Below are positions 15,519 to 16,656 of a stretch of DNA of 47,231 nucleotides, in pieces. The stretch is from Chloroflexota bacterium (lineage in GTDB: Bacteria; Chloroflexota; Limnocylindria; P2-11E). A program made the position numbers and the translations under genes. The stretch lies in the NCBI GenBank assembly GCA_005889405.1, contig VBFY01000036.1:1-47231 (forward strand). The letters run 5' to 3'. The notes below the pieces were generated by a model. The model ran no database searches, was not told the DNA's origin, and saw nothing but the letters and a program-made list of their open reading frames with translations. How positions within the stretch are numbered: the first letter of the stretch is position 1; every line of letters begins with the position of its first letter.

Positions 15519-15592
15519 CTCTGGATTCTGCTCCGACGCGCCGGGTCGCGGATTTGCGACCGCCGCGAGCCGAGATACAGGACATCCACCGG

Positions 15593-15598
15593 CACAAT
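15593..15598 (+). promoter_or_regulatory. Likely -10 box of the Tad minor pilin operon
   Basis: CACAAT (one base off TACAAT) ends 7 nt before the GTG start at 15605. There is no Shine-Dalgarno sequence, so the transcript probably begins at the start codon. Confidence 0.4.
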
Positions 15599-15604
15599 GG
15601 GCGC

Positions 15605-16027
15605 GTGACCAAAGATCGCACGCACCCAAACGGTCGTCACGAGCACGACAGCGGACAGGCACTGGTGGAGACCGCGCTCACGCTGTCGCTCCTTGTGTTC
15701 ACGATCCTCGGGGGCGCGGACATGGCGCGCGCGTTCGCCGCGCAGCTCGGGGTGCAGAACGCCGCGCGGGCCGGCGCGGAGGCTTGGGTGACGCGCGCCG
15801 CCACGACCGACGCGCAGGCGATCGCTTACGCCACCGACGAGCTCGGCCGCATCGCCGGCGTCGACTCCGCCGCGACGACGATCACGGTCACCCATACCAC
15901 CGGCGCCGGTGGCGAGTCGCTGGCGAACGTGCGCGTGCAGTACACGTACCGAACGCTCGCGCCCTGGCCATTCGTCCCGAACACGCTCAATCTCGACAAG
16001 ACCGCGACGTTCCGGAACTACCCGTGA
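15605..16027 (+). CDS. TadE-like minor pilin
   Basis: This 140-residue protein has the TadE signature: a short basic/polar head, then SGQALVETALTLSLLVFTILG with the Glu at position +5 of a type IV prepilin-like site, followed by a hydrophobic helix and an extracellular domain of about 90 residues. TadE-like pseudopilins are exported and processed by a prepilin peptidase and help assemble Flp pili. The GTG start at 15605 is backed by a -10 box 7 nt upstream. It is the first of three cotranscribed genes; its stop overlaps a GTG in a GTGA. Confidence 0.83.
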   Translation: MTKDRTHPNGRHEHDSGQALVETALTLSLLVFTILGGADMARAFAAQLGVQNAARAGAEAWVTRAATTDAQAIAYATDELGRIAGVDSAATTITVTHTTGAGGESLANVRVQYTYRTLAPWPFVPNTLNLDKTATFRNYP

Positions 16028-16047
16028 CGCGCCTGCTTTGCGGCGCT

Positions 16048-16164
16048 GGCACCGAAACCCTCTCTACGACGGGACAGCGTGCTGCCCCGGAGCCGCTCTG
16101 CGGTACGCGCGAAACCCCGTCCCTACGGGACGGGGACCCCTGGCGCGCGGGGGCCCTCGGTGCC
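16048..16164 (+). other. Strongly self-complementary 117-nt segment (candidate structured RNA or palindromic insert)
   Basis: The segment is closed by an 8-bp perfect arm, GGCACCGA (16048-16055) with TCGGTGCC (16157-16164). Inside, CGCGCG (16106-16111) pairs with CGCGCG (16144-16149) and encloses a perfect 9-bp hairpin, CCCCGTCCC (16115-16123), loop TAC, GGGACGGGG (16127-16135). A smaller hairpin CCGC-TCT-GCGG lies at 16093-16103, and GCGT/ACGC could extend it. Either it is an RNA element in the leader of the second TadE-like gene (start 16189), or a palindromic insert carried in frame near the N-terminus if translation begins at 16024. I could not match it to a known riboswitch class. Confidence 0.5.
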
Positions 16165-16188
16165 AACGCCGGTCTCAGCACTCGACCC

Positions 16189-16656
16189 GTGATAGGTCCG
16201 CGTCGATCTGTCGACTCCGCGATCCGGAACGACCGGGCGCAAGCGTTGGTCGAGACCGCGCTCGTTCTACCGCTCCTCTTGTTACTCATCGTGGGTCTCT
16301 TCGACATCGGGCGCGCGATATGGCTCAGCAATACGCTGGCGACCGCGGTGCGCGAGGGCTCGCGCTACGGCGTCGTGCACGGCGCGCTCAGCGGATCGCC
16401 GACCGGTCCGGGCGCCGCCTCGTACACGGCACCGGACACCGACACGGCGATCACGGCGCAGGTGCGGGCGTACGCCACCGGAGTCCCGAACAACCTCACG
16501 GTCCAATCGACGTGGCCCGACGGCAACGCGAATCGTGGCAGCCGCATCGTCGTGAGCGCAAGCTTCCCGTTCACGCCGATCCTCGCCCAGGTGTTCCTCG
16601 GAGGTGGACTGGGCATCACGCTGCGATCGAGCTCGACGCTGGTGATCGAGCAATGA
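16189..16656 (+). CDS. Second TadE-like minor pilin
   Basis: The core of this 155-residue protein is RAQALVETALVLPLLLLLIVGLFDIGRAIW, the TadE-type prepilin segment with Glu at +5, then an external domain ending in a beta-rich stretch (SRIVVSASFPFTPILAQVF). It would be a pseudopilin of the Tad system. The start is not settled: GTG 16189 puts a short basic head before the helix, as in other TadE proteins; GTG 16024 overlaps the preceding stop as GTGA but adds 55 low-complexity residues encoded by the self-complementary segment. Its stop overlaps the next start in ATGA. Confidence 0.8.
   Translation: MIGPRRSVDSAIRNDRAQALVETALVLPLLLLLIVGLFDIGRAIWLSNTLATAVREGSRYGVVHGALSGSPTGPGAASYTAPDTDTAITAQVRAYATGVPNNLTVQSTWPDGNANRGSRIVVSASFPFTPILAQVFLGGGLGITLRSSSTLVIEQ

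Follow-up and report, generated by a model that had tools for sequence, protein, structure and literature searches.

A probable family of small imperfect-palindrome repeats in soil Chloroflexota, with a member at a TadE gene junction

Where two TadE-like genes meet in a Chloroflexota contig lies a set of nested inverted repeats, and the question it raises is whether this DNA encodes a riboswitch-like leader RNA for the second gene or is a palindrome lodged in that gene's own reading frame, the two readings put forward in an initial annotation. From the window (the whole stretch of DNA analysed, 47,231 nt) and related genomes, we conclude that the segment very probably belongs to a family of small imperfect-palindrome DNA repeats, not listed before and confined to one soil Chloroflexota family, that would be selfish or near-neutral and maintained by template switching. 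Copies share a core, are dispersed, and occupy orthologous sites that are empty in other genomes; cores are inverted or replaced between arms that are specific to each locus, and some copies reside in frame within genes.

Anatomy of the inverted repeat at the TadE junction

The inverted repeats described in the initial annotation are real: the 8-bp closing arm and the perfect 9-bp hairpin are both present (Table 1), and the closing stem extends outward to 15 nt (16041-16055/16157-16171) with 93% complementarity. The 117-nt segment between the ends of the closing arm folds at −67.5 kcal/mol, compared with a mean of −52.8 kcal/mol for shuffled sequences (z = −4.2), and none of 200 dinucleotide shuffles folded as well. 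Over the 133-nt element, the + strand had a fold z-score of −5.4 and the − strand one of −5.6. The window copy was also matched, at 16038-16174 (E = 1.6e-5), by a covariance model derived from 65 copies. The extra hairpin found only in the window copy has a counterpart in position: L005 (G000:C114) carries an unrelated 51-nt insert at the matching point. Rfam covariance models, run on the window and on eight loci with other copies, returned nothing at the gathering threshold and, at E values up to 10, chance-level matches only; no known RNA family matches any of these loci.

Table 1. Features of the window copy and of the flanking TadE-like genes (window coordinates).
Feature	Coordinates	Strand	Remarks
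First TadE-like gene	15563..16027	+	5' end putative; stop TGA 16025-16027; PF07811, E 2e-8; from ORF list
Second TadE-like gene	16024..16656	+	GTGA-coupled GTG; Pfam PF07811, E 6.5e-14; open frame
Whole element	16040..16172	+	133 nt, 12-bp outer arms plus core; element + strand given by CCGAAACCC
5' outer arm, GCGGCGCTGGCA	16040..16051	+	Locus-specific; 10/12 positions pair with 16161-16172
3' outer arm, TGCCAACGCCGG	16161..16172	+	Complements 16040-16051
Core of window copy	16052-16160		109 nt, enclosed by the 12-bp outer arms
8-bp closing arm, GGCACCGA / TCGGTGCC	16048-16055 / 16157-16164		Perfect in the initial annotation; present
Conserved 5' block, CCGAAACCCTCTCTAC	16052..16067	+	Near-invariant across the 65-copy alignment
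39-nt extra hairpin insert	16068..16106	+	Only in the window copy; missing in 70-nt cores of the same subtype
Conserved 3' block, GCGCGAAACCCC...CGCGCGGGGGCCCTCGG	16107..16160	+	P2, P3 and constant closing half; five other same-genome copies, 86-98% identical
P3 hairpin	16115..16135	+	Perfect 9-bp stem (16115-16123/16127-16135), 3-nt loop

Dispersed copies, exchanged cores and empty sites

A search of the genome itself with 16028-16190 recovered five more copies of the 60-bp stretch 16105-16164 at 86-98% identity, so the arrangement is not due to chance; all five also bear the 5' block, as CCGAAACCCTCTCWAC or in a closely similar form. The core common to the copies runs CCGAAACCCTCTYWAC...GGGGGCCCTCGG and is typically 70-78 nt long, giving an element of about 95 bp, compared with 133 bp in the window. 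Matches to the consensus were found in 18 of 28 family genomes, and the covariance model put the total at about 128 copies, spread over 17 of these genomes; G013 and G014 have none, and 149 further genomes of the class gave no hit. When genome_contigs (84,980 species) was scanned for the exact pattern, the only matches were soil MAGs named ‘Chloroflexi bacterium isolate CF_xx’, and the same kind of scan gave no copies in viral contigs. One 71-nt core is shared unchanged by seven copies, and identical cores sit at unrelated loci, as the initial annotation had expected of a mobile palindrome.

Copies lie upstream of, downstream of, inside and between unrelated genes, in both orientations (24 sense and 15 antisense between co-directional genes), and only two intergenic copies fall between convergent genes. 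The riboswitch-like leader is not supported, given this variety of orientation and position, the inversion of the core at orthologous sites (below) and the absence of Rfam matches. The copies do not fit a cis-regulatory leader, there being no consistent orientation upstream of one gene class and the positions and genes being varied, and a terminator-like role was rejected, given only two convergent copies.

Several copies depart from the typical form. In genus g5, L103, L053 and L054 (G018, G019) have cores of 116-122 nt in which the P3 loop is extended; they make up a distinct subtype, with members residing in PurL and in an ABC-F gene. At about 1873-2070 of G004:C261 (L087), a full copy is followed by a second, convergent CCGAAACCCTCT half-element. 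One MAG, G003, contains two nuo junctions (L199 on C150 and L044 on C117), each with a copy of a different subtype; because this MAG has 5% contamination, the two may stem from two organisms.

Grouping the copies gave about 17 loci, shared by up to seven genomes. Between orthologous sites, the core can be inverted while the arms are kept (L006 vs. L067, 22 of 24 arm bases equal; L039 and L055 vs. L004), or exchanged for another subtype within kept arms (L046 vs. L086, again 22/24). A compensated arm change distinguishes L093 (GGTTCGGCCCGA) from L094 (GGCTCGGCCCGA). Cores of genus g1 are 93% identical from locus to locus, higher than the 82% seen between genera g1 and g2 at a given locus (15 pairs), and cores thus undergo concerted evolution. 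The persistence of copies at orthologous loci in two genera could reflect selection for a function.

Empty sites were compared at the nuo, methyltransferase, TPP and TadE loci. In several genomes the nuo genes overlap or abut without the element, and at the TadE junction G015, G005, G023 and G022 lack it and keep the GTGA overlap (ATGA in G023). Decayed remnants remain in the TadE locus of G012, the nuo locus of G011 and FtsK of G005, G002 and G009. In the TPP enzyme, the element substitutes for linker DNA instead of being cleanly added. No new insertion event was caught among the occupied and empty sites compared, which are about 80-90% identical, and at that divergence a target-site duplication would not be visible. 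One further reading is that hairpins already in place, such as terminators, receive the element and that their stems turn into the variable arms; the empty TadE ortholog of G015 does have a 7-bp hairpin (CGCGGCG-CTCGT-CGCCGCG) at the element's place. However, 17% of random windows match or exceed this hairpin, stem length was significantly above background in 0 of 18 empty sites examined, hardly any copies lie between convergent genes, and the empty sites at gene overlaps are too tight for a hairpin. We regard such an origin as very improbable.

Two junctions differ in other ways. At the nuo junction of a same-genus genome without the element (L220, G013:C221:43840-44445) there is a different palindromic insert, GGGGCAGGGGCCCCTGTTCAGCGAG..., with two related halves, possibly a second repeat family. 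At the orthologous TadE junction of G012 (L008, G012:C17), a rearranged copy has its 5' half forward and its 3' half (CCGAGGGCCCC) inverted, and the frame with the coupled GTG is still open.

Arm pairing, strand asymmetry and candidate enzymes

Moving outward from the core, the arms pair at 72-98% over positions 1-12 and at background beyond, which gives an arm length of about 12 bp, drawn from 66-109 copies. Combining arms of two separate copies gives about 45-50% pairing, the chance level, and the identical-core copies inspected carry quite different arms, the outermost 12 bp being locus-specific. The arm pairs of 109 copies comprise 1156 Watson-Crick, 13 G-T and 139 other pairs, so that G-T makes up 8.6% of non-Watson-Crick pairs, compared with 12.5% under random pairing. 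As a selected RNA helix should show G-U enrichment, the arms appear to be DNA copied from DNA and not RNA-selected. The initial annotation held that compensatory changes in the arms would prove an RNA; pairing is indeed conserved, but the near absence of G-T pairs favours DNA copying over RNA selection. Subtype-4 copies in E2 and FtsK (L132, L184, L119, L101 and L179) have similar arms (about GCGGCTCAGGCG), unlike other loci, for which coding constraint or transfer together with the arms is a possible cause.

In 102 of 104 copies, the more stable fold is that of the complement of the CCGAAACC strand (mean −75.6 vs. −69.1 kcal/mol). Among the P3 mismatches on this complement strand, 29 are G-T and 60 purine-purine, whereas A-C accounts for 1 and pyrimidine pairs for 3; many share ancestry and so are not independent events. 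The bias points to some importance of one strand as a single-stranded fold as well, and together with long persistence at orthologous loci it would fit a structured RNA, either a cis-regulatory leader or a small RNA, from this best-folding strand with its pairing under selection. We nevertheless consider an RNA of this kind quite unlikely: the arms lack G-U enrichment, the core inverts at fixed loci, orientation relative to genes has no clear bias, about 20 copies are in frame within genes, and none of the loci searched matches Rfam. The strand asymmetry is not fully accounted for by either pure DNA neutrality or RNA selection.

A folded DNA strand might instead be the substrate of a putative recombinase or transposase that moves or exchanges cores between arms, as in integron attC sites or REP hairpins. 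Such a single-stranded recombination site would agree with the strand-asymmetric mismatches, with the exchange and inversion of cores inside kept arms and with the near-constant arm length, but it is unlikely, since inspection by eye revealed no attC R boxes and no partner gene was found. The RAYT/Y1 transposase (PF01797) occurs in 0 of 28 family genomes, with control genomes positive, and the integron integrase (TIGR02249) likewise in 0 of 28. Reverse transcriptase (RVT_1) is found among the 28 only in G026 (L257 and L258, on C69 and C59), a genome with no copies. Identical cores at unrelated loci would be expected if an RNA element had been retrotransposed by such an enzyme, but with RVT_1 restricted to a copy-free genome this is hardly credible. 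All three enzymes were rejected as partners, being absent or uncorrelated with copies in the 28 genomes.

The preferred reading is therefore framed around replication. When a polymerase switches template between inverted repeats, the signature reported in the literature is homogenised arms together with an inverted spacer (PMC8604942; see also PMC8794818 and PMC7202029). We infer that the element is a hairpin of selfish or nearly neutral character that would persist where it is harmless, either in intergenic DNA or in frame within linkers and leaders. Template switching in replication would keep the arms complementary and flip the core, and recombination among copies would homogenise the cores. 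The near-constant arm length is not predicted by template switching alone. It is conceivable, though not probable, that only the core of roughly 70 bp is mobile or homogenised, flipping and swapping within fixed-length, locus-specific arms by a strand-specific mechanism that acts on folded DNA (or RNA) through a putative enzyme, and could in this way enter essential genes in frame.

Residence within genes and relation to known repeats

About 20 copies lie in frame within coding sequences, several of them essential and nearly always in inter-domain linkers, as called by direct translation and Pfam; a codon-score test, which proved too strict, gave 3 hits. The linker peptides predicted in the E2 and FtsK proteins follow the pattern PKPSxPGG..GPSE. 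By Pfam, the seven kinds of host gene are two paralogous E2 acyltransferases (element between the lipoyl and E3-binding domains), FtsK (between FtsK_4TM and FtsK_alpha), a UbiE-like methyltransferase (immediately past the methyltransferase domain), a TPP enzyme (between TPP_M and TPP_C), PurL (past the best-scoring AIRS_C stretch) and an ABC-F ATPase (between the ABC and CTD domains), the last with copies in two genera. Copies inside genes are read in frames 0 and 2 in both the sense and the antisense orientation. At the methyltransferase locus, one genome has the element inverted with the reading frame intact, and orthologous intragenic copies differ in length by multiples of three (73/70, 75/78). 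The element is not a stop-poor coding cassette: on average 4.7 of 6 frames are open, compared with 4.4 in composition shuffles, which is not special.

For the window copy, the frame from GTG 16024 stays open up to the stop at 16654, as the second initial reading requires, and leads into the TadE domain. Since orthologs without the element have the same GTGA-coupled start for the second TadE, the likeliest reading of the sequence is that the copy is an in-frame insert in the leader of that gene, ahead of the domain. The second of the two initial proposals, an in-frame palindromic insert, is supported: the insert would amount to roughly 45 codons and occupy about residues 6-50 of a protein whose TadE domain spans residues 73-114. 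GTG 16189 may be used as the start instead. If the element did enter the N-terminal leader codons, then the protein would tolerate roughly 45 extra residues, and the mRNA would gain a strong hairpin.

In function, the closest analogues are the palindromic elements of Rickettsia (RPE; Ogata et al. 2000, 2002), which the review PMC10969869 summarises as palindromes some 150 bp long that occur between genes as well as, often in frame, inside unrelated metabolic genes, each coding a conserved peptide. The Chloroflexota element is similarly in frame in seven kinds of unrelated gene and in the TadE leader. Compared by description only, it differs from RPE in its host lineage, its locus-specific arms and its flipping, subtype-exchanged core; moreover, it has no conserved peptide, several frames and both strands being used. 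REP/BIME/REPIN with RAYT are short dispersed palindromes that are mostly extragenic (PMC3116915, PMC3733652), REPs being 20-40 bp long (PMC3733652). Our element is likewise short, dispersed and mostly extragenic, but it is about 95 bp long, has variable arms and comes with no Y1 transposase in the 28 genomes. ERIC, RU-1 and other MITE-like repeats are dispersed palindromes of about 100 bp, sometimes intragenic (PMC2759123, PMC10969869). The element resembles them in size, dispersal and occasional intragenic residence. In MITEs the terminal inverted repeats are conserved, whereas here they differ by locus even when the cores are identical. Integron attC sites conserve stem pairing and not sequence, and one strand folds. 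The Chloroflexota stems share both properties, but the copies are single and dispersed, no cassette arrays were seen, and no family genome has the integron integrase. Locus-specific arms with exchangeable, invertible cores are the unusual feature of this element.

The best-known palindromic elements that reside in frame are those of Rickettsia, a reduced bacterium living inside cells. That soil Chloroflexota have a second family, apparently unrelated to the first, suggests that linker peptides of essential proteins can arise repeatedly from small hairpins. In genomes of this kind, a hairpin that is strong and seems to covary is not necessarily an RNA, and caution is warranted; here, the near absence of G-U pairs makes the correction of a DNA palindrome separable from RNA selection. 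Finally, kept arms with flipped and swapped cores offer a test case for the copying, correction and spread of short palindromes where no transposase is obvious.
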